Program-made: the position numbers and the translations under genes
The notes under the pieces: model-generated
The model's input: the letters and a program-made list of their open reading frames with translations, nothing else
The model's database searches: none
What the model was told of the DNA's origin: nothing
Source: a virus
Direction: 5' to 3' (one strand)
Virus record (IMG/VR): IMGVR_UViG_3300025769_000982
Span: 1-21,698 of that record
Length of the DNA stretch: 21,698 nt
In this document: positions 1,414 to 21,063 of the stretch, one piece after another
Position numbering within the stretch: position 1 is the stretch's first letter
Layout of the letters: each line of letters opens with the position of its first letter

Positions 1414-1899
1414 ATGGCAGTATTAGATCCAAACGAAATATTTTTCACCCCATTTGAACCAAAACAACAAAATAGATTTGTTTTGTATGTAGATGGATTT
1501 CCCGCTTACCTTATCAAGGGATTAGGTGCGATAACAGTATCCCAAAACCCAGTAGTTTTGAACCATATCAATATCCAAAGATATGTTAAAGGTAAAACTA
1601 CTTGGGGTACAATAGCATTAACCCTATATGATGCTATCACTCCTTCAGGAGCTCAATCAATTATGGAATGGGTGAGATTACATCACGAATCAGTAACGGG
1701 TAGAGATGGTTACTCTGATTTTTACAAAAAGGATTTGACAGTAAATATTTTAGGTCCTGTTGGTGATGTGGTTTCTGAATGGATTATTAAGGGTGCTTTA
1801 ATTCAGGAAGCTTCATTTGGTGATTACAATTACGATAATGATGGTGCTGTTGAAATCTCAATGACAGTACAACCTGATTATTGTGTGTTAAACTTCTAA
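1414..1899 (+). CDS. Tail tube protein, T4 gp19 type
   Basis: Forms the inner tube of the contractile tail, through which DNA passes. The 161 residues match the T4 gp19 family in length (T4 gp19 is 163) and pattern: an N-terminal FFTPFEPKQQNRFVLYVDG strand, then YLIKGLGAITV, VVLNHINIQRYVKGKTTWG, LTLYDAITPSGAQSIMEWVRLH in the helix region, and a C-terminal EISMTVQPDYCVLNF strand. It follows the sheath gene directly and is followed by a terminator, as expected for an abundant virion protein expressed as its own unit. The ATG at 1414 gives the normal N-terminus; no Shine-Dalgarno sequence precedes it. Confidence 0.95.
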   Translation: MAVLDPNEIFFTPFEPKQQNRFVLYVDGFPAYLIKGLGAITVSQNPVVLNHINIQRYVKGKTTWGTIALTLYDAITPSGAQSIMEWVRLHHESVTGRDGYSDFYKKDLTVNILGPVGDVVSEWIIKGALIQEASFGDYNYDNDGAVEISMTVQPDYCVLNF

Positions 1900-1917: not shown

Positions 1918-1955
1918 AAGGAAAGGCGTACTTCGGTACGCCTTCCTTGTTTTTT
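1918..1955 (+). terminator. Rho-independent terminator after the tail tube gene
   Basis: The arm AAGGAAAGGCGTAC pairs with GTACGCCTTCCTT, with one bulged A, around a C(TTCG)G tetraloop, followed by a run of six T after a G. The stem is by far the most GC-rich and stable inverted repeat in the gene gaps. It separates sheath and tube, which are needed in high copy, from the assembly genes downstream. Confidence 0.88.
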
Positions 1956-1987: not shown

Positions 1988-2722
1988 ATGGCACTTGACA
2001 ATTTAAAGTTACCTACAGAAACAGTAGAACTCCCCTCAAAAGGTCTTTTATATTCAAAAGACAATCCCTTAGCTTCCGGCACAATTGAAATGAAGTATAT
2101 GACTGCTAAGGAAGAAGATATCCTAACTAATGCAGCTTATATTAAAAATGGAACTGTAATTGATAAACTACTTAAATCAATGATAGTTTCTAAAATTAAT
2201 TATGATGACCTTTTAATTGGAGACAAAAATGCTATTTTGATAGCAGCTCGTGTGTTAGGATATGGTAAGGACTATGAATTTACTATAGGAGACACAACCC
2301 ATACAGTTGATTTATCCCAAATAGAAAATAAAAAGTTAGACGAATCACTATTCCAATCAGGTAAAAATGAGTTTAATTATACATTACCTAACACAGGTAT
2401 TGAAATTACTTTTAGATTATTAACTCATGGTGATGAAAAAAAAATTCAAAAAGAATTAATAGGTATTAAAAAATTAAACAATTCTAACCCCGAAGTATCT
2501 ACCAGATTAAAATATATCATTACTTCAGTTGCTGATAGTAGAGAACCTAAAGACATAAGGGAATTTGTAGATAGTTATCTCCTAGCAAAGGATGCTAGAG
2601 AATTTAGAAATTATATAGCTAAAATTCAACCAGATGTTGATTTAACTTTTTTTCCCGACGACGGAACAAAAAATATTACCATCCCAATTGGTATCAGCTT
2701 TTTTTATCCTGACCTCGACTAA
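1988..2722 (+). CDS. T4 gp26-type baseplate/tail assembly protein
   Basis: The 244-residue product resembles the T4-like gp26 family (T4 base plate protein). The features seen are VELPSKGLLYSKDNPLASG near the N-terminus, then IEMKYMTAKEEDILTNAAYI and DKLLKSMI, and an acidic C-terminal end IPIGISFFYPDLD that in relatives reads like FFWPD. T4 gp26 was described as a hub component. Its position between tail tube and tape measure is also that of the gpG-type tail-assembly chaperone, and I favour a chaperone role by position. The end overlaps the next reading frame by 35 bases, and a T7 run at 2699-2705 lies in the overlap. Start chosen: ATG at 1988, the first in frame after the terminator. Confidence 0.82.
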   Translation: MALDNLKLPTETVELPSKGLLYSKDNPLASGTIEMKYMTAKEEDILTNAAYIKNGTVIDKLLKSMIVSKINYDDLLIGDKNAILIAARVLGYGKDYEFTIGDTTHTVDLSQIENKKLDESLFQSGKNEFNYTLPNTGIEITFRLLTHGDEKKIQKELIGIKKLNNSNPEVSTRLKYIITSVADSREPKDIREFVDSYLLAKDAREFRNYIAKIQPDVDLTFFPDDGTKNITIPIGISFFYPDLD

Positions 2723-2984
2723 CGCTGCTAATTTACGAAAAAACCTATTTACCCAAATTCATGAAATAGTATTTCATGGGCAAGGGGGGTATGATTGGGA
2801 AACTGTATATAATATGCCCTTGTGGCTTCGTAGATTTACTTTTGATAAAATAAAGGAATTTTATGATAATAAAGCTAAAGCAGCAGAAAAATCCCAACCT
2901 AAAATCCCAGGACAAACTACTGTTATAGACCCCACAGGTAAAGTTAAAGCACCTGAACATTTAAAGCGTCCTACATATCGATAA
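2688..2984 (+). CDS. gp51-like overlapping frame, probably expressed by frameshift from the gp26-like gene
   Basis: The frame is open from about 2646 to the stop at 2982-2984. Its conserved-looking part begins near 2724: NLRKNLFTQIHEIVFHG, then GGYDWETVYNMPLWLRRF and a charged, proline-containing tail. It has no ATG before residue 43 of this frame. The only early candidate start is TTG at 2688, without a Shine-Dalgarno sequence, whereas the other starts in the window are ATG, and no AATATTTAT motif precedes it. It sits where T4 gene 51 follows gene 26 and where gpT follows gpG in other tailed phages. I infer expression as a C-terminal extension of the gp26-like protein (about 331 residues after +1, 332 after -2). 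Translation from TTG or by reinitiation remains possible. Confidence 0.68.
   Translation: MVSAFFILTSTNAANLRKNLFTQIHEIVFHGQGGYDWETVYNMPLWLRRFTFDKIKEFYDNKAKAAEKSQPKIPGQTTVIDPTGKVKAPEHLKRPTYR
2699..2705 (+). promoter_or_regulatory. Candidate recoding site: T7 run in the gene overlap
   Basis: Seven T read in the upstream frame as TTT TTT T(AT). A phenylalanine tRNA on the second TTT can re-pair perfectly one base forward (2703-2705) or two bases back (2700-2702); both give the frame of the downstream gp51-like protein, continuing ATC CTG ACC. Transcriptional slippage on the same run would have a similar effect. Candidate only: the site is read from the sequence, the event is not shown. Confidence 0.42.
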
Positions 2985-3011: not shown

Positions 3012-5054
3012 ATGGCTATAGGTGATGATGTTAATAAAGCTAGAGAAGAAACAAAAAAGCTAACAGAAGAAACAGGCTTTTTAATTGATGCCTTTACTTC
3101 ATTAGGGGTAACTATTACGGGAGCTATTGATGAAGCTATCCAATCCGCACAAGGATTAGACTCAGCGGGCAAAAAAATAGCTGATACTTTTAGTAAAGAT
3201 ATAACTAGGGGGCTTAAAGGAGTAGTTTCAAGTCTTGATGAACAATTAGCTATTCAAATTAAAATCAATAAGGGACAAAATGCTACTAAAGATATTGAAA
3301 GAGCAAGAGAAAAATCTGCTGCTAAACTAGCGGCTATAGATGCTCGTATTGAAATCTTAAAAAGAAACGGCGTAGAAATTGATGCAGAAACTGTACAGGA
3401 ACTTGAAAATCAAAAAGCCATCCAGAATGAAATACTAGATGAATTACAAAGACAGAGTGATGAAGCAGTTCGCCAAAAAGGAATTTTTGTAAATTTAAGA
3501 GATGTACTCACTGATAACCTTGATAAAATAGATCAAACAGGTACTTTATCTAAACTTGTAAACTTTAAAAATGCTTTAGCAGACGGAGATCTTTTTAAAC
3601 TTACTATGATAGCAATACTTAAAGCAGCTCTTGATGCTAGTAGTGCTATAGCAAACATTCAAAAAGAAACAGGCCTTGCTTATGGAGAAGCTCGTAGGCT
3701 TCAAATGGAATTTGGTAATATAGCAGTTAATAGTGAAAAACTCTATGTTACTACAGAAGACATAGGAAAAGCATTTTCTGAATTGACAAAACAAACAGGT
3801 TTTATAGCTGATTTTGGTGGAGATACACTTGTATCCTTTACTACCCTTAATAAACAGTTAGGATTAAGTGAAGAGGCAGCAGGAAGTCTTGCAACCTTTG
3901 CTAGAATACAAGGAGAAAACACAGAGGATATACTATCTAATACTGTAGATACTGTAAGTGCTTTAAATAAACAAGATAAAGTAGCAGTTAACGTTAAACA
4001 AGTTCTCCAAGATGTTGCTGCAGCTAGTAAATCCATAGCAGCTTCTGTAGGATTTGCTCCTGATAGTTTAGCTAAAGCAGCTCGTGAAGCTAGAAAATTA
4101 GGTTTATCCTTAAGTGAAGTAGATGCTGTAGCAGAAAGTTTACTTCAATTTGAATCAAGTATTGAAGCTGAATTAGAGGCAGAACTTCTCACTGGTAAAC
4201 AAATTAATTTAGAAAAAGCTAGACAATTTGCACTTACAAATGATTTAGAAGGACTTTCTAAGGAAATAGCAAACAATGAAGAAATTATAAGTGCGTTTTC
4301 CTCCCAAAATAGAATCCAACAACAAGCTGTAGCTGATAGTTTAGGGGTAAGTAGGGACCAATTAGCTCAAATGGCCCTTAGCCAAAAATTAGCTACTATG
4401 AGTGCTGAGGAATTTAAAGATGCTTATGGTGAAGCTACTTATGAATCATTAGCTACTCAAAGTGCTACTGAAAGCTTTCAAAATACTATCCAAAAAGTTC
4501 AAAGTATAATAGGAAATATAGGTACAGTATTAGCTCCTATCGTGGATGGATTTGCATCTGTAGTTGGATTTTTAGTCCAATCTAAAGGAGCAGCATCAGT
4601 TTTAGTAGGAATTCTTTCAGGATTAGCAGTAAAATCATTAGTAACCGCTATATCAAATATATACCAATCCTTTTTACAGATACCTTTTGGTGTCGGTCTT
4701 CCACTAGCTATTGGAGCCTCAGCAGGTCTATTAGCTACCATAGCATCAGCTACATCTATGTACGGTGATGATATTATCTCCCCTGCACAAGGAAAATCAG
4801 GATATGGTAAACGTACATTATTTGGACCAGAAGGTGCTATTAAACTTAATGATAATGATACTATAGTAGCAGGTACTAATTTAGATCAAGGATCTAATCA
4901 ATCCTCACCTTCAATTAATTTAGGTCCTTTAGTAGAACAAATGAATAAAATGAATGCTACTTTAGATGCTATTTTAAGTAAAGAAGGTACTGTTATGTTA
5001 GATAGTACAAAAGTAGGTACTGCTCTAACAGTAGGTTCATATAAATTACAATAA
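3012..5054 (+). CDS. Tail tape measure protein (gp29 role)
   Basis: Sets tail length and fills the tube before DNA ejection. In 680 residues it shows the usual tape measure layout: an N-terminal helical region (about 1-160) rich in Lys, Glu and Ala with coiled-coil-like heptads; a long alpha-helical middle; hydrophobic, membrane-like stretches at about 505-545 (VVGFLVQSKG, VLVGILSGLAV) and 557-580 (LPLAIGASAGLLATIASA); and a C-terminal motif GYGKRTLFGPEGAIKLND followed by DTIVAG, a pattern I associate with T4-like tape measures. At about 1.5 Angstrom per residue the length suggests a tail near 100 nm, similar to T4. The position after the gp26/gp51-like pair fits. Sequence identity to T4 gp29 itself is not obvious; the call rests on architecture and order. 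Confidence 0.85.
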   Translation: MAIGDDVNKAREETKKLTEETGFLIDAFTSLGVTITGAIDEAIQSAQGLDSAGKKIADTFSKDITRGLKGVVSSLDEQLAIQIKINKGQNATKDIERAREKSAAKLAAIDARIEILKRNGVEIDAETVQELENQKAIQNEILDELQRQSDEAVRQKGIFVNLRDVLTDNLDKIDQTGTLSKLVNFKNALADGDLFKLTMIAILKAALDASSAIANIQKETGLAYGEARRLQMEFGNIAVNSEKLYVTTEDIGKAFSELTKQTGFIADFGGDTLVSFTTLNKQLGLSEEAAGSLATFARIQGENTEDILSNTVDTVSALNKQDKVAVNVKQVLQDVAAASKSIAASVGFAPDSLAKAAREARKLGLSLSEVDAVAESLLQFESSIEAELEAELLTGKQINLEKARQFALTNDLEGLSKEIANNEEIISAFSSQNRIQQQAVADSLGVSRDQLAQMALSQKLATMSAEEFKDAYGEATYESLATQSATESFQNTIQKVQSIIGNIGTVLAPIVDGFASVVGFLVQSKGAASVLVGILSGLAVKSLVTAISNIYQSFLQIPFGVGLPLAIGASAGLLATIASATSMYGDDIISPAQGKSGYGKRTLFGPEGAIKLNDNDTIVAGTNLDQGSNQSSPSINLGPLVEQMNKMNATLDAILSKEGTVMLDSTKVGTALTVGSYKLQ

Positions 5055-10348: not shown

Positions 10349-13300
10349 ATGGCTGAAAAAACAAGAATAGATTTAGGCTTTCCCTCATTATTTGCTTCTC
10401 TATCATTTGATGGGCAAACTATTACGGATGGGGTTGTAGTCTATGACTCAGAAAGCCAACAGCTTTTTTATACGGGCAGTTATGGTGGTGCAGGAGGAAC
10501 TTCTGGGGTTATAGATTTAAACTCCCTTTCTGGTTCTTTAAATATTGTAGGGGGTATTGGTATATCAATTAATTCTTCCTCAACTAATGGTACTATAACT
10601 ATTACAGCTACAGGAGAGTCTGATGGTACGAGTGGTACTTCAGGCACAAGTGGTACAACAGGCACTTCAGGCACTTCAGGTGTAAGTTATTGCTTATTTG
10701 AATCTGAATATGGTGGTACTGTTAATTCAAACCCTTCTAATCCTGGTGATGGAAAATTTAAAATATTAATAAATTCAAGTACCCGTATAGATCTCAACAC
10801 AACAAGTTCAAACGGTACTGACATAGAAGATCTTTTATTAGGACTTACACCTCCATTATTATTAAAACTAACTAAAACCACGGATTCTACAGTTTGGAGG
10901 GCTTTTAGGGTTACTAATATAGATGATAATACTAATTATGTATATCTTAATACTACACTTTTAGATTCTAGTGGAACTCTTAATATAGGAGATGATTTTT
11001 GCTTCCAAATTACAGAAGCAGGCACTTCAGGCACTTCAGGCACAAGTGGTACAACAGGTACCTCAGGTACTTCAGGCACAACTGGTACCTCAGGTACTTC
11101 AGGGACTACAGGCACCTCTGGCACTTCAGGCACAACGGGTACTTCAGGCACTTCAGGTACAACTGGTACAAGCGGTACTTCAGGCACAACAGGCACTTCA
11201 GGTACCTCAGGTACCTCAATATCCCTTACAATAGTTAGTGGTTCCACAACAGGTACAGGAATAGAACGCTTAGAAATTTCTGGTAGCGGTAACTTAATTG
11301 TAAACTCTTCTACTGCTTCTATTAATATAGAAGGAGGAGGAATATTTACAGATCAAGAAACGTATTATAATACTTCTAACACTTTACAAATAACAGGTTC
11401 TACTCTTGAACTTAATGCTCCTGGAACTGGAGAAGGTACTTCTTCTGTAAATACTGGGGGTTATGCTTTTTTAGTTAGTGAATCTATTTATTCATACAAT
11501 CATAATGTAGGATATCCTAAAAGTAATGCTTGGAATGAAAATTTAGAGGGATCTTATTTTGAAAACTTTACTGCTAACACTAACACATCTGAAATTTTAA
11601 GATTTGTAGCAGGTTTATTAAGTTCCTCAGCACCTTCTCCTACCCCTAATACTAAATATTATGCGGGTATAACAGGAGTTAATTCTAGTGAATCTAATGG
11701 TATAAATGATGTTCCTGAAGGTTTTGTTCCTCAAAGTTCTACTAATACAGGAATTATATATTTAAATAGTAAAGGATTTGCTAATGAAGGAGAAAATATA
11801 TTTAGGGGAATAACTAATATCCAAAAAAGTGGGAACTTTAGGAGAAAGTATAATTCTGTAGCAGGAGGAAGCACAACAGTTTCTTCTTCTAATGATGGTC
11901 AACTTTTTGGAATAGGTTCTCTTAGTGATACTTTTTATGTATCTACTTCTATAGAATGGAATTTTTCCTCCCAATCTAATGAAATAATTAGCTATCAAGA
12001 TAGTGAGGAATATACTAAATCTAACACAACAGAAAATACTACTAGTAATGATGGTATAGAAAGGGCAACCATCCCAACCTCTAACCCTTCAGTAATCCCT
12101 GCTGTATACCAAGATGGAAAATTTGAAAATTTTATTGATCAAACCCAATATTTTTCCCTTAAAAATAATTTAGATGGAGGAAGTTCAGTTTTTAATAACG
12201 TAACTGAATCTGTAGGGTATTATTATATAACTGCTTCAATAGCAATTAGAACAGGTTCTCAAGTTAATTATAGTACCTATTATGAAGATAAATTTAAAAT
12301 TTTTGGATGTGGTACAACTTCATTTGGTATTGATGGAACAGAATTATATATTCCTGACAATACTCTTTCTATAATAGATTCCCCTTCATACATTCCTTTA
12401 ACAGCCACTTCACGTTCCCTATCAGGTGCTCCTTATTTATTAACAGCTACTTGGGAAGCATCAGGTTCAATTGGTGGAGTTTTTAACCCTCTTTATAGAA
12501 GTGGTAGCTTCGGAAATGTAACTTTAGCTCAATTTTTAGCTTTATCTAATGTTATTAATGAAAGTGGAAAATACACTATACAAAATCAAACTGGAGGTGG
12601 AACTCTTAGTGCAAGTGATATTGTATATTCTAGTGATGGTACTACCTCTAGAGCAGTTGGTGAAATTCCTCACGAAACTGATATAATTAGGTTAACTGCT
12701 TCATTTGCTACTGATTTTAGTGATGGGGATACTAATATAGATCAAATTGGAAGTAGTTCTGCAACTTTTCTTGCTAACCTTAAGGGTTTTAAACCTGATG
12801 GTACATCCTTCCCAAACCAATCCGTCTCTATACCATGGTTTACCGCTGGTACTTTTGGACAATCCCCAGATTCAGGTTCAATGGTATACTATAAACGCAA
12901 TCAGGGATATGATGGAGGAACTTTAACGACATTTGCTGAAGCATTTACAGGAGAAAATTATAGAATTGGAATAACAGATAAGTTACTTTCAGGTTCATAT
13001 GATAATGGAGATAAGTTTACTACAGGTTCATATTATGTTAATAACTTAGGAGGATTAGATTTACAAGTAAAACCTGGCTATTTAGTAAAACCTGGAGGTA
13101 CTTATGGATATTGGTTTACAGATCCTGATAATACTAAAGTTTATAAATTTTATGCTAGAGCTTTTAAACGTGATTTAACCAATGCAGCTGTTACTATGAC
13201 TCTTAACGTAGGTACTACATTAAATTCCTGGGAAAGCACTAGTGATGGAGTATCAGCAGCAATTATTTTCCAAAGTTCGGGAATTGAAAATTATACAACC

Positions 13301-13561
13301 CCAATAATATATGATCCAACACAGTTAACTTCTAATTTAATTTCCGCTTCAATTTCTAATGATAACCATAAAAATCCTTTTTCGAATAATATTGCTCTTA
13401 GGGGAAATATTGGTGGAAATTTAAATTCTAATACTTATACTGTGCCCCTTCGAAATGGAGATGGTATGATTTTGGATGGAAATGATCAGAATTTTATAGT
13501 TATAATACGATATAAGGGTGATCCATCTCCTGTAACTGGTATTGCCATTTCTATTAGTTAA
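10349..13561 (+). CDS. Tail fibre-like protein A with two collagen-like tracts
   Basis: The 1070-residue product has the following order: an N-terminal part (1-92) with [19 protein letters not shown]; a 7-triplet GTS/GTT tract (93-113); a globular module (114-224) starting near [12 protein letters not shown] and ending GDDFCFQI, a type often seen between collagen-like tracts of phage fibres; a 22-triplet tract (225-290); a linker (291-325) with [11 protein letters not shown]; and a C-terminal region (about 326-1070) homologous to that of the next gene, including [25 protein letters not shown] and [20 protein letters not shown] trimeric fibre with receptor-binding or decorating C-terminal domains is the likely role. 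There is no chaperone or peptidase motif at the end. Its N-terminus differs from those of B and C, so it may attach to another partner. Confidence 0.8.
10625..10687 (+). repeat. Collagen-like tract A1 (7 Gly-X-Y triplets)
   Basis: In-frame Gly-Thr-Ser/Thr triplets in fibre A, the last being Gly-Val-Ser. It separates the N-terminal part from the first globular module. Confidence 0.93.
11021..11218 (+). repeat. Collagen-like tract A2 (22 Gly-X-Y triplets)
   Basis: Uninterrupted Gly-Thr-Ser/Thr triplets in fibre A with a dominant 27-base (GTS-GTS-GTT) period. The codons vary synonymously from unit to unit. It ends in the shared linker block. Confidence 0.93.
11201..11340 (+). repeat. Dispersed linker block, copy in fibre A
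   Basis: 140-base block that starts at the last two Gly-Thr-Ser triplets and encodes the [11 protein letters not shown] linker. Related copies are at 16105-16247 and 19822-19961. By my count it differs from the third copy at 8 of the first 89 bases but at only 1 of the last 51. Confidence 0.88.
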
Positions 13562-13578
13562 AAAGATAAAATACCGTA

Positions 13579-16500
13579 ATGGGATTAGATAAAACAAAAA
13601 AGTCAAATAGATTACTCGCGGGTAGAAGGTATACTCACGAGAATTTGAATGACAATCAAGAAGCTTTTACAAGAGTACTTGATATAAATGCTTCTGACAT
13701 TTATATCCAACAGGACTCTATCCCTTCATCATCCCTACCCTTTTCAGCTAGCTCACAAAATGAAAATTTTATCACTTCAGGAAGTGACAATATTGTTAAA
13801 TACTATTATAATTTTCAATTAACTCCCTCGAGTGTTGTTAATGGTAGTAATACAGAAGTATTCTTTTTTATCTCAAAATCAGGACATAGTCCTAATAATG
13901 ATGTTACCCCTCAAATTATTCAAGACGGTCAACAAGGAAACTTCATATCACCAAAATATTCAGATCCTTCATTAACTAATGCAACTACTGAAGAAAACCC
14001 TCCAGGTTATAATGTAGTAATTAAAGTAAATGGTACTGATCAAAATCCTGCAAATTACCAATTTGATTATAAAACGGGTGTTTTACAATTTTCATCTTCT
14101 GCTCCTACAACAGGCGATACAGTTACAGCAACTGTTTACCAATATGTAGGCCAAACTTTAGATGCTTTCATATCTGAAGGAGGAGGTGGTGGGGGCACCC
14201 CAGGTACATCTGGTACTTCAGGTACTTCAGGAACTACAGGTACAAGTGGTACTTCAGGAACTACAGGTACCTCTGGTACATCAGGTACAACAGGCACTTC
14301 AGGTACTTCAGGTACAACTGGTACTTCAGGTACATCAGGTACAACAGGCACTTCAGGTACTTCAGGTACTTCAGGAACTACAGGTACTAGTGGCACTTCA
14401 GGTACAACTGGTACTTCAGGTACATCTGGTACTACAGGTACTTCAGGTACAAGTGGTACAACAGGTACTTCAGGTACTTCAGGAACAACTGGTACCTCTG
14501 GTACTTCAGGTACAACTGGTACTTCAGGTACATCTGGTACTACAGGTACTTCAGGTACAAGTGGTACAACAGGTACTTCAGGTACTTCAGGAACAACTGG
14601 TACCTCTGGTACTTCAGGTACAACTGGTACTTCAGGTACATCTGGTACTACAGGTACTTCAGGTACAAGTGGTACAACTGGTACTTCAGGTACATCTGGT
14701 ACTACAGGTACTTCAGGTACAAGTGGTACAACTGGTACTTCAGGTACATCAGGAACTACAGGTACTAGCGGTACCTCAGGTATAAGTGGAATTGCTTTAC
14801 CCCATACTTATTATAATTTTACTATTTCTACAAATCCCGGAGACTCTCCCTCCTCTGGAGAAATTGTTTTACTAGATTCATCTATTCCCTCTCTAGAAGA
14901 AATTTGGATCCATTCAGAATCAATAGATGGGGTTAATATTGCTCCACAAGGATGGAATCCCCCTGAATTTTTATATGGAGATATAGAATCTATAATAACT
15001 TTACTAGAAACAGGTTCAGGAAGATTTCAAAGTTATTTAGTTACTGAAATTAATCTTTCATCTGTATACATTAGATATAGTATTGAACTAAATAATGTAG
15101 TATCTAGTAGTTCTCCCCTCCAAAATGGAGATGTTGTGCAATTTGTATGGGACAAAGCTACGGGTATAGGAGGAGCTTTTGGTCCTTCTGAAGGGTCTAA
15201 CACTAAACTTTTTGCGAATGCCTTCCAACCCGGTTATAATTATTTAGACATGTACTTTGGTACAGGTCCTACTAATTTTACATCTTCTCCTCCTGGGGAT
15301 CTTTCAGCATTAAACCCTTCAGGCTCATTTAAAGATTTTCAATATTTTCTCCCGGCTGTTGCTACATCTTCAAATCTTATTTTAGGAAACTTAGAATTAA
15401 CAGGCTCACTTACAGCAAGTGTATTACCTGATGCTGGAGGAAGTGATTATAATGTAGTAGTATGGGATAATGCTACAGGTAGGTTCTATTCTACAGGTTC
15501 TTATAACAATGGCACATCAGGAACTACAGGTACTTCAGGTACATCTGGTACTACAGGTACCTCTGGTACGTCTGGTACTACAGGTACCTCTGGTACGTCT
15601 GGTACTACAGGTACCTCTGGTACAAGTGGTACAACAGGTACCTCTGGTACAAGCGGTACAACAGGTACCTCTGGTACAAGCGGTACAACAGGTACCTCTG
15701 GTACTTCAGGCACATCAGGAACAACAGGTACTTCAGGAACCACAGGTACTTCAGGTACTTCAGGCACAACTGGTACAAGCGGTACTTCAGGCACATCAGG
15801 AACAACAGGTACTTCAGGAACCACAGGTACTTCAGGTACTTCAGGCACAACTGGTACAAGCGGTACTTCAGGCACATCAGGAACAACAGGTACTTCAGGA
15901 ACCACAGGCACATCAGGTACTTCAGGCACAACTGGTACAAGCGGTACTTCAGGAACTACAGGCACATCAGGTACTTCAGGCACAACTGGTACAAGCGGTA
16001 CTTCAGGCACAACTGGTACAAGCGGTACTTCAGGCACAACTGGTACAAGTGGTACCTCAGGAACAACCGGCACCTCAGGTACATCAGGCACAACAGGCAC
16101 TTCAGGTACCTCAGGTACCTCAATATCTCTTACTATAGTTAGTGGTTCTATAGAAGGTACAGGAATAGAACGCTTAGAAATTTCTGGTAGTGGAGATTTA
16201 ATTATATTAAATAGTAATACTGCTTCTCTTAATATAGAAGGGGGAAGTGGCGGGATATTTACATATCAAGGAACGTATTATAATACTTCTAATACGCTAC
16301 AAATAACAGGTTCTACCTTACAAACTTCTCCTTCTCAAAGTGGTACTGGAACTTCAAACCTTAATACTGGAGGGAGTAATAATGAAATATATTCTGTTCT
16401 ATTAACCGAATCTTTATACACTTACAATCATAATGTAGGATACCCTACAGCAAATTCTTGGAAGGAAAGTTTAGAAGGATCCTACTTTAATAATTTTGAT

Positions 16501-18468
16501 GCTAATACTAATGTTTCAGAAATATTAAGATTTATGGCAGGTTTATTAAGTGCTTCTGCACCTTCACCTTTTCCCAATACTCAAACTTATGCTAATATAA
16601 GTGAGAATAAAAATAATACAGGAATAGGTACTGCCCCCGCTGGGTACTTACCTCAAAACACTCCAAGTAATCCTACTTTAGCATACTTAGAAACCAAAGG
16701 TTTTGTATCTGATGGAGGTACCATATTTAATGGTATTTCTCCTATTCGTAATAATACAAATTATTATATAAATTATTCATCAGTAAAAGGAGGAAGCACA
16801 ACAGTAAGTTCAGACGATAACCCAGGTAGTACTGAACTATTCGGTTTAGGATTAATTAATAATCAATTTATAGTATCTGGAACCCAAGACTGGAGATTTT
16901 CAGATAACTCAAGTAAAACTTTAACAGCAGCAAATCATTTAGAATCTACATTAACTCAAACAGGGCCTGGTACTACTTCTGGGGTAACCGTAGGAAATAT
17001 ACAAACTGCAAACCCTGCAGTTATACCTGTTACTTATCAAGATGGTAAATTTGTTAATATTTTACAAGCAAATTTATATAATGATGGAATAGATTTAAAT
17101 ACTAAAGAAGCTACTGGATGGTATCAAATTACTTCTTCAATAAAAATAGCTTCAGGTTCTTCACTTTTTAGTACTTCATATACACAAAAAGAAGAAATAT
17201 TTTATGCGGATACTGCCCAATTAAATAGTGATATTGGTTTAAATACTCTTAGTTACGCTGATAATTTTATCACTAGCTTAACAGCTACTTCTCGTTCTTT
17301 ATCAGGTGCTCCTTATTTAAGAACCGCAGGTTGGACTGCAGGAGCAGAAGTAACAGGTTTATTTGACCCCTTATATGCTTCTAGTACTACTATTGCTAGA
17401 ATAACCAATGATAATACTTTAGTTACAGTTTCTGCTGGTGGAGGGGGAAATCGTATACTTAGTACAGATGGAGGTACTATACAAACAGCAAATGTAGTTT
17501 ATAATTCTACAGGTACCGTTCTTAGAAGTACAGAAACTGTTCCGTTTGATGATGATATAGCTATATTAACCTGTAGTTTGGATTTTAATGCCGGTACTAG
17601 TGGTGATACTAATGCTGGTGCAACTACAATATCTCCTACAACGTTTAATACTATACTTAACGGTAGAAATAGGGAAAGTACTGAATCTAATATATTAACT
17701 ACCGCTGTTGATTTTCATGCTGATGGAACTTTTGGACAACCTGCACCATCAGGTTCAATGGCTTACTATGGTAGAGCACAAGGATATGACAATGGTACTT
17801 TAACAGGTACTACTGAACAATTTACAGGAGAAAATTATAGAATTAAAATAACTGATAACTTACTTTCGGGCTCATATGATGATGGAGATAAGTTTACTAC
17901 AGGTTCATATAGTGCCTATAATTTAGCTAAATATGATTTGCAGGTAAAACCTGGTTACTTAGTAAAAGCAGGAGGTACATATGGATACTGGTTAAATGAA
18001 CACTCTACTTCTACAAGTGATTATAAATATTACGCACGAGCCTTTAAAGACAATTCAGGTACAACTAGATTAAGTTTAAAAGTAAATGTAGGGAAAACTT
18101 TAGTAAATTGGAATTCAACTAATGATGGAATTGCACTTGCTGTAATGCTTCAATCAGCTAAATCGGGAAGCACTTCAGCAGGTTTTGGTCCCCTTCCTAG
18201 ATCTATTATATATGACATTTCAAAATTTACTTCCTATGGGGGAACTTATGATAACCAATCAACTGATGATCAACTGAATCCATTCTTTACTAATATAGAT
18301 ATAGTAGCTAATGACAACGAGGGATCGGTAAGTAACCAAACTTATACTTTACCTTTAACCACAGCCCTTTCTCAAGTAATAAACTCAACTTACCCTAATT
18401 ATATACTTCTTATTAGGTATAAAGGAGATCCTTCTCCAATTACTAATATCACAGTATCCTATACTTAA
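13579..18468 (+). CDS. Tail fibre-like protein B with two long collagen-like tracts
   Basis: 1629 residues, the largest product here. Order: an N-terminal domain (1-208) shared with fibre C ([15 protein letters not shown], then [16 protein letters not shown] as a hinge); a 65-triplet GTS/GTT tract (209-403); a central globular region (404-644) with [16 protein letters not shown] and ending [19 protein letters not shown], which echoes the N-terminal motif of fibre A; a 68-triplet tract (645-848); the [11 protein letters not shown] linker; and a C-terminal region (about 885-1629) homologous to that of fibre A ([35 protein letters not shown]). It starts 18 bases after fibre A with no motif between, so co-expression with A is likely. 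The shared N-terminus with C suggests a common attachment site. Confidence 0.82.
14203..14787 (+). repeat. Collagen-like tract B1 (65 Gly-X-Y triplets)
   Basis: In-frame Gly-Thr-Ser/Thr triplets following an oligoglycine hinge; the last triplet is Gly-Ile-Ser. It contains exact 108-base tandem repeats (separate entry). Low complexity keeps several other frames open, and these are not genes. Confidence 0.95.
14401..14724 (+). repeat. Exact 108-base tandem repeat with 54-base partial units
   Basis: Bases 14401-14508 and 14509-14616 are identical over 108 bases, synonymous codon choices included. They are followed by 54-base units at 14617-14670 and 14671-14724 that match the first half of the long unit. 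Because codon usage varies elsewhere in the tract, identity at third positions marks recent duplication rather than protein constraint. Confidence 0.9.
15511..16122 (+). repeat. Collagen-like tract B2 (68 Gly-X-Y triplets)
   Basis: Second in-frame tract of fibre B, Gly-Thr-Ser/Thr throughout. It includes the 81-base tandem array (separate entry), which breaks the usual nine-residue rhythm with [12 protein letters not shown] stretches. Confidence 0.95.
15700..15942 (+). repeat. Three tandem copies of an 81-base unit
   Basis: Copies at 15700-15780 and 15781-15861 are identical, and 15862-15942 differs at two bases by my comparison. Each encodes 27 residues (nine triplets). Exact identity inside an otherwise codon-varied tract points to recent expansion. 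Confidence 0.9.
16105..16247 (+). repeat. Dispersed linker block, copy in fibre B
   Basis: Encodes the [11 protein letters not shown] linker after tract B2. Its first 89 bases differ from the fibre C copy at one position; beyond that it diverges and carries an additional codon. Confidence 0.88.
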
Positions 18469-18475
18469 TATTTAT
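18467..18475 (+). promoter_or_regulatory. AATATTTAT start-associated motif 7 (fibre gene C)
   Basis: Exact AATATTTAT overlapping the TAA stop of fibre B (18466-18468) and ending 5 bases before the ATG at 18481. It would open a unit of fibre genes C and D. Function inferred. Confidence 0.38.
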
Positions 18476-18480
18476 ATAAG

Positions 18481-21063
18481 ATGGCTAATTTAAATAAAGA
18501 AACTAAATCAAATAGGTTACTCCAAAGTTTAAGGTATACTATAGCTATTGGAGATGGTCAAGAAGCATTTACTAATGTACTTGATTTAAATGCTACTGAA
18601 ATTTATACACAAGAATTTTTAATTCCAACTTCTTCCTTACCTTATTCTCAAAGTAGCCAAGATGGAGAAATAGTTTCTAGTAGTATAGCCGATCCTTCGT
18701 ATTCTCCCGAAGTTTCTATATTAAAATATTACTGGAGATTAGAACTAACTCCTTCAACAATTGTCACTGATGGTAAATCTCAAACTTGGTTTACCTTATC
18801 TCCACCCCAAACTAATGTTAACCCACAATTAGTAAATTCAAACCAACTAACTAATTGGGTATCTAATAAATACTATGACCCAGCTTTCCCAACAAGGAAT
18901 ACTGAGGGAAACGACCCAGGTTATAGAATAATAATACTCTCAGGATCTTCAGGAGGAACAGCAGCTAATGCTGAACCTATAGATGGAACTCTTTATCAGT
19001 TTGATTACAAAACGGGAGTTTTAAATTTCTATTCTTCATCTCAATCACCTAGTGAAGGAGATAAACTATATATAACAGCTTATAGATATATAGGTCAAAC
19101 TTTAGATACCTTTATATCTGAAGGAGGAGGTGGAGGAGGTACCCCAGGCACATCTGGTACTTCAGGAACTACAGGTACTAGTGGTACTTCAGGTACTTCA
19201 GGAACTACAGGTACTAGTGGTACTTCAGGTACAACTGGTACTTCAGGTACTTCTGGCACTTCAGGAACTACAGGTACTAGTGGTACCTCAGGAACAACAG
19301 GTACTTCTGGTACTTCAGGAACTACAGGTACTAGTGGTACCTCAGGAACAACCGGTACTTCTGGTACTTCAGGAACAACTGGTACTTCTGGTACTTCAGG
19401 AACAACAGGTACTTCAGGCACGTCAGGAACTACAGGTACCTCAGGTACAAGTGGTACTACAGGTACTTCAGGTACATCTGGTACAACTGGTACTTCAGGT
19501 ACTTCAGGAACTACAGGTACCTCTGGTACATCTGGTACTACAGGTACTTCAGGTACATCAGGTACAACAGGTACTTCAGGCACAAGTGGTACAACAGGTA
19601 CTTCAGGTACGTCTGGTACTACAGGTACTTCAGGTACGTCGGGTACTACAGGCACTTCAGGCACAAGTGGTACAACAGGTACCTCTGGTACTTCAGGCAC
19701 AACTGGTACCTCTGGTACTTCAGGCACAACTGGCACTTCAGGTACTTCAGGCACAACTGGTACAAGCGGTACTTCAGGAACTACAGGCACATCAGGTACT
19801 TCAGGCACAACTGGTACATCAGGTACCTCAGGTACCTCAATATCTCTTACTGTAGTTAGTGGTTCTATAGAAGGTACAGGAATAGAACGCTTAGAAATTT
19901 CTGGTAGTGGTAACTTAATTGTAAACTCTCCTACTGCTTCTATTAATATAGAAGGAGGAGGTAATACTACCCAATATCAAACAAGCTCGGGAACTTTATA
20001 TGATTTAGGTACTTTAAATATTTTAGATTATGATTCTAATGTTTTTGTAACTTCTGATCCAAATACTGGTAAGTTAACTTTGCAATTTGGTACTCCTTCA
20101 TTACCTTCTATTACTTCTATTACAGATAATAGCACTTTTAATGTTAATAGATTTAATAAAATTAATGATAATTATACAGTAGATATGAATTTTGATTTAA
20201 ATACCACTACATTTATTTCAGCTTCATTTATATCTAATTCTATTGAAATTTTAGGTACCGATATAGAAACAAACCCTTTTGAGTTAGATGTAACTAATTT
20301 AGCTTATCCTTCACTAGCTTCAGGAAGTCACCTTATAACAGGAAGTTTAACAGTTCAATTAGCTGACAACTCAGAATATATTATAGAAAGCACATTAAAT
20401 TTAAATTTATCTAAAGGTGCACCAGGTAATCCTTCCTTAACTGCTAACTACAGTGGAGTACAAGGAGGGGGTAGTACTAATAGTAGTAATTTAAGAGTTC
20501 ATGTAGGAGCTACAGGTAGTATAACTTATACAAGTAGTTCAGGTACAGCTAATGATTGGGAATCTGTAAGTATTACAAATAATAATTCTTCTCCTGTATC
20601 CTTAGCAGGGGGAGTAAATACTCCTTCAATTGGGTTAACTCAAAATTGGCAATCCCCTGCAGGAGAAAATGATCCTCAAATATTTTATGAAACTAATAGA
20701 ACTTATACTGTAGATAGAGTATTTACATATAGATGGGGTGCTGCTGCTGCAAGTAGTTTATCCCAAGCTAATATACTAGATTTATACTACCTAGCTAGTG
20801 AAGGTTTTAATTCTTCAAGTGTAACTACTGAAGACCCATTAAATGTAAACCTTACTATTCAAGGTAATAGTTTTGATTATCACTATATCATAGTAAAAAG
20901 TAATGAAATAAGTGATACCCCTACTATTACTGTAAATAACCTCCCAGTTACATTTCCCCTAGTAGCAACTTATACAAATATTGTAGGTTCCGAAGGATAC
21001 AAGGTATTTAGAACAGGACAACAAGGCCCTTCAGCTATAACTTATAAAATAACTTCATCATAA
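18481..21063 (+). CDS. Tail fibre-like protein C with one 77-triplet collagen-like tract
   Basis: 860 residues. The N-terminal domain (1-222) is homologous to that of fibre B ([31 protein letters not shown] hinge). It is followed by the longest tract of the window (223-453), the [11 protein letters not shown] linker, and a C-terminal region (about 490-860) unlike those of A and B. The last region looks beta-rich with many Ser, Thr and Asn residues and repeated strands such as [27 protein letters not shown]-like segments and [10 protein letters not shown]; it may be a stack of immunoglobulin-like or similar domains. Sharing the anchor and linker but not the tip suggests an alternative adhesin on the same attachment point as B. 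I recognise no named family for the tip. Confidence 0.8.
19147..19839 (+). repeat. Collagen-like tract C1 (77 Gly-X-Y triplets)
   Basis: Uninterrupted Gly-Thr-Ser/Thr triplets, mainly in the GTS-GTS-GTT rhythm, with varied Gly, Thr and Ser codons. Longest tract in the window; starts after an oligoglycine hinge and ends in the shared linker. Confidence 0.95.
19822..19961 (+). repeat. Dispersed linker block, mosaic copy in fibre C
   Basis: 140-base block. The first 89 bases follow the fibre B copy (one difference) and the last 51 follow the fibre A copy (one difference), with a sharp switch near 19911. This is the pattern of recombination or gene conversion between the fibre genes. Confidence 0.87.

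Follow-up and report, generated by a model that had tools for sequence, protein, structure and literature searches.

How an open reading frame that begins inside the end of its upstream neighbour, and that carries no evident start of its own, comes to be translated is the question raised by a tail gene locus in the IMG/VR virus record IMGVR_UViG_3300025769_000982. The window, meaning the whole stretch of DNA that was analysed, is 21.7 kb long, and its left part holds the genes for the tail sheath and tail tube, a gp26-like gene whose product is called TAC-N here, the overlapping second frame, and then the tape measure gene (Table 1). The second frame opens at 2646, after a TAA at 2643-2645, and runs to 2984. 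An earlier note on this DNA had proposed that a +1 or -2 frameshift joins the two frames. The comparison with relatives described below makes it very probable that a programmed frameshift of this kind joins TAC-N to the second frame, so that one gene would have two products. The predicted long form has 331 aa (37.6 kDa) if the shift is +1, and 332 aa (37.8 kDa) if it is -2.

Table 1. Features of the locus, numbered from the first letter of the window.
Feature	Position	Strand	Remarks
Tail tube protein gene	1414..1899	+	phrog_4542 tail tube, E=1.9e-27
Terminator-like hairpin AAGGCGTACTTCGGTACGCCTT with T-rich tail	1923..1955	+	between tail tube and TAC genes
TAC-N, gp26-like	1988..2722	+	ATG start; 244 aa, 27.6 kDa; standard decoding
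Second open frame TAC-C, gp51-like domain	2646..2984	+	+1/-2 relative to TAC-N
Further T7 run inside the overlap	2647..2653	+	internal control; not conserved
TTG, gene caller's likely start for the second frame	2688..2690	+	at this place in 40/101 relatives
Putative shift site TTT TTT TAT CCT (0 frame)	2699..2710	+	codons synonymously invariant in 101 relatives
Added codons of the predicted long form (n=92)	2706..2981	+	read in the second frame
TAC-N stop, TAA	2720..2722	+	21 nt past the start of the first slip codon
Tape measure protein gene	3012..5054	+	680 aa; homology to Flavobacterium phage immuto

The two frames and their neighbours

The placement described in the earlier note, in which the second frame overlaps the end of the gp26-like gene and precedes the tape measure gene, was confirmed on both counts. 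The tape measure gene lies directly downstream of the pair, and its product shares 44% identity over 357 aa with the tail tape measure protein of immuto, a phage with the same gene order.

TAC-N matches phrog_150, a baseplate hub family (E=2.8e-14), and its Pfam score for T4_baseplate, PF12322, is 30.8 bits, above the gathering threshold of 24.5. AF2 gave a confident model of the protein (pLDDT 90). When this model was compared with 350,542 PDB chains, the top match was the HK97 tail assembly chaperone 2ob9, at a non-significant E of 0.95 and a probability of 0.51; since that E-value is not significant, the likeness can be taken only as a hint of a chaperone fold in the model. Among predicted viral structures, the model has T4-like baseplate hub proteins and SP-15 as its neighbours, and a sequence search of solved structures returned no meaningful match.

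The name gp51-like, given to the second frame in the earlier note, can be kept for its C domain and not beyond it. In hhalign, the profile of the second frame aligns with that of the C domain of cyanophages (77%, E=2e-5). Of 51 second-frame members, 8 match phrog_634, baseplate hub assembly catalyst, weakly (lowest E=0.0029); matches of members to phrog_32580, tail assembly chaperone, are weak as well, and a direct match to T4 gp51 was not found. It is the relation to the cyanophage frame, together with the weak match to the gp51 PHROG, that makes the label reasonable for the C domain only. In the annotated records of immuto (L081, 4839-4949) and cyanophage S-RSM4 (L088, 5765-5899), annotation of the TAC C domain begins only at an internal ATG, giving a tiny protein labelled hypothetical or gp51, and the coding part upstream is left as intergenic. 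Gene callers truncate or overlook the long product in such cases, the 36-codon ORF in immuto being an example.

Elsewhere in the window, the hairpin between the tail tube and TAC genes is seen directly in the sequence, such hairpins as a class being no more frequent than shuffling would give; SP-15 has an annotated terminator in the same place. Positions 10349-21063 hold three large ORFs in which long blocks of collagen-like repeats separate unrelated head and tail parts, and these repeats give rise to many spurious overlapping ORFs. Searches of the window found neither Rfam families nor tRNAs.

A frame relation and a probable slip site conserved across relatives

Relatives were collected by scanning viral contigs with the gp26-like protein, which gave 80 loci, and with its homologue from Microcystis phage Mel-JY01, which gave 80 more; the LR756508 protein, used as a further query, hit no viral contigs. 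The second frame lies at +1/-2 and overlaps the end of gp26 in the first set, wherever the sequence sufficed, and the same +1/-2 relation holds in the second. Three loci of the Mel group (L213, L242, L250) had been called -1 by a crude automatic longest-frame rule; they carry the same motif and, within the dereplicated set, a +1/-2 frame that stays open for at least 55 codons past the slip. The complete genome records of immuto and Mel-JY01 show the +1/-2 relation, as does a Winogradskyella MAG contig. Among the relatives examined there was no in-frame fusion of both frames, the 0-frame stop always preceding the core of the second frame. The 160 sequences were anchored on the motif and dereplicated to below 90% DNA identity, which left 102, and then 101 after a distant jumbo phage (L091) that had matched the motif spuriously was dropped. 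In all 101, the second frame is at +1/-2. A canonical -1 shift cannot reach this frame, as had been stated in the earlier note, because the second frame is +1 (equivalently -2) and because, in the window, reading in the -1 frame meets a stop 47 nt past the gp26 stop.

The T7 run at 2699-2705 is indeed present, with TTT TTT TAT as its 0-frame codons, and the form of the site in the 101 relatives is YTT NTT TGG/TAY CCT. The first slip codon is TTT in all except three, which have CTT; the second is TTT in 85, CTT in 15 and CTA in one. Phenylalanine at the first slip codon is thereby written TTT in 98 of 98 cases, compared with 0.775 across the gene, CCT is used in 101 of 101 at the site, compared with 0.235 of the proline codons in the gene body, and aspartate at the site is GAC in 56 of 56, compared with 0.245 in the gene (one TTC and one CCA in the codon table belong to the excluded L091). 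When synonymous conservation is ranked over 144 codon columns, the three slip-site codons take ranks 1-3 (1.00, 1.00 and 0.99), and the next column reaches 0.48. The 101 relatives share ancestry and are not independent trials, and the other columns serve as the control because every column of the gene has that same ancestry. The arrangement goes beyond chance, since it recurs in all the dereplicated relatives and its slip codons are the most synonymously constrained of all.

What is conserved is less the T run as such than its setting. The seven T are replaced by TTTCTTT in 15 of the 101 and by TTTATTT at one locus (L011), while the surrounding codons are frozen. Perfect re-pairing of a phenylalanine tRNA, on which the earlier note had relied, does not hold as a general rule, because T7 is replaced in these relatives. 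At L225, L233 and L237 the site reads CTT TTT TGG, with the C in the first slip codon. The jumbo phage LR756508 (L085, 3258-3271) has TTT CTA TTC CCT, the sole CTA, and its frame is still +1/-2.

The residues that follow the slip in the second frame are F-G-L-T, and the leucine two codons beyond the landing codon is invariant in the relatives because CCT is frozen. For a view of coding outside the overlap, the first 60 nt past the TAC-N stop were chosen, where the second frame is the only possible coding frame; there, 78% of the codons with a single difference are synonymous in the second frame, against 12% and 4% in the other two. Judged by these sequences, the second frame is constrained at the protein level starting with the codons that immediately follow the slip.

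Two other positions for a slip were considered and rejected. Of 66 relatives, 26 share the upstream T7 run at 2647, and in 21 the second frame does not stay open from that position to the slip site; as the 2647 run is variable and the frame often closed after it, the run at 2699 is the conserved site. As for a slip at the stop codon of TAC-N, this stop lies anywhere from 15 to 30 nt from the first slip codon in relatives, and all three stop codons are used.

Direction of the proposed shift, its alternatives and a possible mechanism

Three routes lead into the second frame, namely +1 at the second slip codon, +1 at the first and -2 at the second, and T7 permits all of them. The direction is probably +1, a route that is favoured though unproven. 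As at the prfB site, a U would come next after the shift codon, here UUU or CUU, and the TTTCTTT relatives give CUU_U; in prfB, CUU is the most slippery codon, followed by CCC and UUU (PMC10274946). That the third base of the first slip codon is constrained is no less compatible with -2, or with +1 on the first codon, and +1 on the second would account for it only through an E-site effect; nor does this last route explain the TTT CTA TTC of L085. No stop codon stands in the A site, where relatives have TGG or TAY, and neither a Shine-Dalgarno at 3-nt spacing nor a conserved SD-like stretch adjoining the site was found in them. A search for RNA structure downstream gave nothing clear or strong, with a mean z near 0 to -1.

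The same fusion would also follow from a Mu-like -2 shift, in which the tRNA paired with the second codon steps back by two bases and one extra phenylalanine is added. This route seems unlikely, if still a serious competitor: such a tRNA would re-pair perfectly on T7, and nearly all relatives have TTT or TTC at positions 2-4 of the site, in keeping with the third-base constraint of the first codon, but -2 shifts are far rarer than +1 shifts, and CUU_U and UUU_U are among the top +1 shift codons. The precedent of phage Mu, put forward in the earlier note, agrees with PMC5009743. At L011 (TTT ATT) a -2 slip would require an Ile-tRNA on UUA, a worse match than UUU after +1. The computed junction peptide of the window is NITIPIGISFFFILTSTNAANLR (2522.39 Da) under -2 and NITIPIGISFFILTSTNAANLR (2375.32 Da) under +1. 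In immuto, with the site TTT CTT TGG, the computed tryptic peptides differ among the three routes: +1 on CUU gives FFPEDGPDGGVDIPIGVSFLGLTPEYR, of 2893.42 Da and ending in SFLGLTPEYR, +1 on the first UUU gives ...SFFGLTPEYR (2927.40), and -2 gives ...SFLFGLTPEYR (3040.49).

A further alternative is that the second frame is an independent gene, entered at the TTG at 2688 or at another non-ATG codon by coupled initiation. The absence of an ATG before residue 43, noticed earlier, is real: counted from the TTG, residue 43 is the first ATG, and this TTG is the only start-like codon upstream of it, while ATG opens all the other tail genes whose starts were checked. A TTG does stand in the same place in 40 of the 101 relatives, but it is a by-product of the IPIG codons, and start-like codons are otherwise scattered over more than 20 offsets. 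In the alignment of homologues, 58 of the 101 have no ATG before the conserved core, and 23 have neither ATG nor GTG nor TTG, so that expression from a standard start is impossible in those 23. An independent start would moreover have no need of the synonymous freezing of the slip codons, and it is very improbable. CTG was tried as a start and rejected, the leucine codon in the Mel-JY01 group being CTN with any third base.

Slippage of the RNA polymerase at T7, giving rise to mixed mRNAs, can be given an equally slight chance. Seven T are found in the window and in most relatives; however, those with TTTCTTT or TTTATTT keep the frame and the flanking motif without any homopolymer, and runs of seven are short for transcriptional slippage. 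Variation in the T run thus speaks against slippage of the polymerase and is consistent with a prfB-like YUU_U shift. Homopolymers are error-prone in sequencing, but an assembly or sequencing error that conceals a single in-frame fusion, to which none of the analyses pointed, has a vanishing probability here and is already refuted for the family, the frame relation being the same in about 160 loci from many assemblies, including the complete immuto and Mel-JY01 records, and persisting where a C breaks the run. Overall, a programmed +1 or -2 frameshift, as first suggested, is supported by a conserved frame relation and overlap, an independent start that is not conserved and slip codons that are synonymously invariant.

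In the mechanism that we infer, it would be the ribosome, and not the polymerase, that slips. The majority of ribosomes would translate TAC-N and stop at the TAA at 2720, and a minority would slip at UUU UUU UAU (2699-2707), most likely by +1, with the tRNA of the second codon (YUU) shifting onto the overlapping UUU while UGG or UAY waits in the A site. These ribosomes would go on in the second frame and produce a TAC-NC of about 37.6 kDa. By analogy with lambda G/GT, TAC-N may form a coat on the tape measure protein, and TAC-NC, the rarer form, may recruit the tail tube protein through its C domain; both would leave afterwards.

Polarity across T4-like phages and comparison with known systems

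The window belongs to a large +1/-2 clade, which a tree built from 101 gp26-like proteins recovers as one group (100/98); the clade is mostly uncultured and includes Flavobacterium and Microcystis phages. In the cyanophage relatives, TTTTTTC precedes a second frame at -1 in all 81 loci. The C-terminal end of cyanophage gp26 (L094-L173), with its second frame at -1, is almost invariant: TTTTTTCGGATAGCACTCTTCCA. The second frame is at -1 in XacN1, RAS14, Atu_ph07, Paride, phiM19, phi-Grn1, AR2819 and Vibrio D504 as well, and at +1/-2 in SP-15, LIS04, a Streptococcus phage and LR756508, the labels of the distant single phages on the polarity tree having been set by eye. Polarity needs at least two changes on this tree, in which several branches are long and the deep joins unsure. 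We regard it as an even call that one T4-like TAC gene switched polarity at least twice and that the clade uses a +1 signal, YUU_UGG_CCU, on a sense codon with no stop, Shine-Dalgarno or RNA structure. One gene pair is found at -1 (cyanophages and several jumbo phages), at +1/-2 (a large T4-like clade) and as separate genes (T4), and these three arrangements lend themselves naturally to studying the evolution of frameshift polarity. The candidate +1 signal is compact, lies on a sense codon and could be tested in a cultured phage.

The abstract of Vladimirov et al. reportedly names genes 26 and 51 and speaks of frameshifting as conserved in several groups. According to PMC10274946 and PMC12846349, Vladimirov, Gautam and Davidson (2022, Virology 566:9-15) identified the T4-like TAC genes and discussed frameshifting, and in some T4-like phages the short and long TAC forms come from separate genes; PMC12846349 also describes T-rich -1 sites in T4-like TAC genes. 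As far as sequence comparison goes, the tail assembly chaperone frameshift of this locus belongs to a type that T4-like phages were already known to have. The expectation that a fused product would change how this pair is understood therefore stands in part: the T4-like TAC genes have been in print since 2022, together with frameshifting in some groups, and what appears to be new is the +1/-2 variant. No description of the conserved variant was found in the literature searched, in which the 2022 Virology paper was represented by papers citing it.

Where the tail-chaperone frameshift is concerned, a 2016 review listed T4 as the exception among long-tailed phages (PMC5009743). Set against the T4-like 26/51 system, TAC-N here is a gp26 homologue and the C domain is related to cyanophage gp51, but genes 26 and 51 of T4 are separate and on opposite strands whereas the frames of the window overlap, and the cyanophages and the jumbo phages XacN1 and Paride use the -1 frame whereas the window clade has +1/-2. 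The N part of T4 gp51 aligns with gp26 (hhalign E about 1e-4) and its C end matches the cyanophage second frame (E=1.6e-3); on these alignments, T4 gp51 looks like a separate protein made of TAC-N and C parts.

Lambda G/GT has the same design as that proposed here, with a short chaperone, a rarer C-extended form, a slip near the 3' end and the tape measure gene next (PMC5009743). The lambda shift is -1 and that of the window clade +1/-2, and no sequence match of the window proteins to lambda-type chaperones was found. Polarities other than -1 in a tail chaperone pair are seen in Mu (-2) and in haloarchaeal HSTV-2, for which a +1 TAC shift is predicted (PMC8211752), although their sites differ from that of the window and their hosts are unrelated. 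The Listeria phage that the earlier note had named as a +1 precedent for G/T pairs does not serve as one, since the shifts of PSA affect capsid and tail-shaft genes (PMC5009743). Finally, prfB (RF2) has a stop codon in the A site and a Shine-Dalgarno at 3-nt spacing, in contrast to the sense codon here, which lacks such a Shine-Dalgarno; yet the two sites share a P-site YUU followed by U, with UGN as the next codon, UGA in prfB and UGG here.
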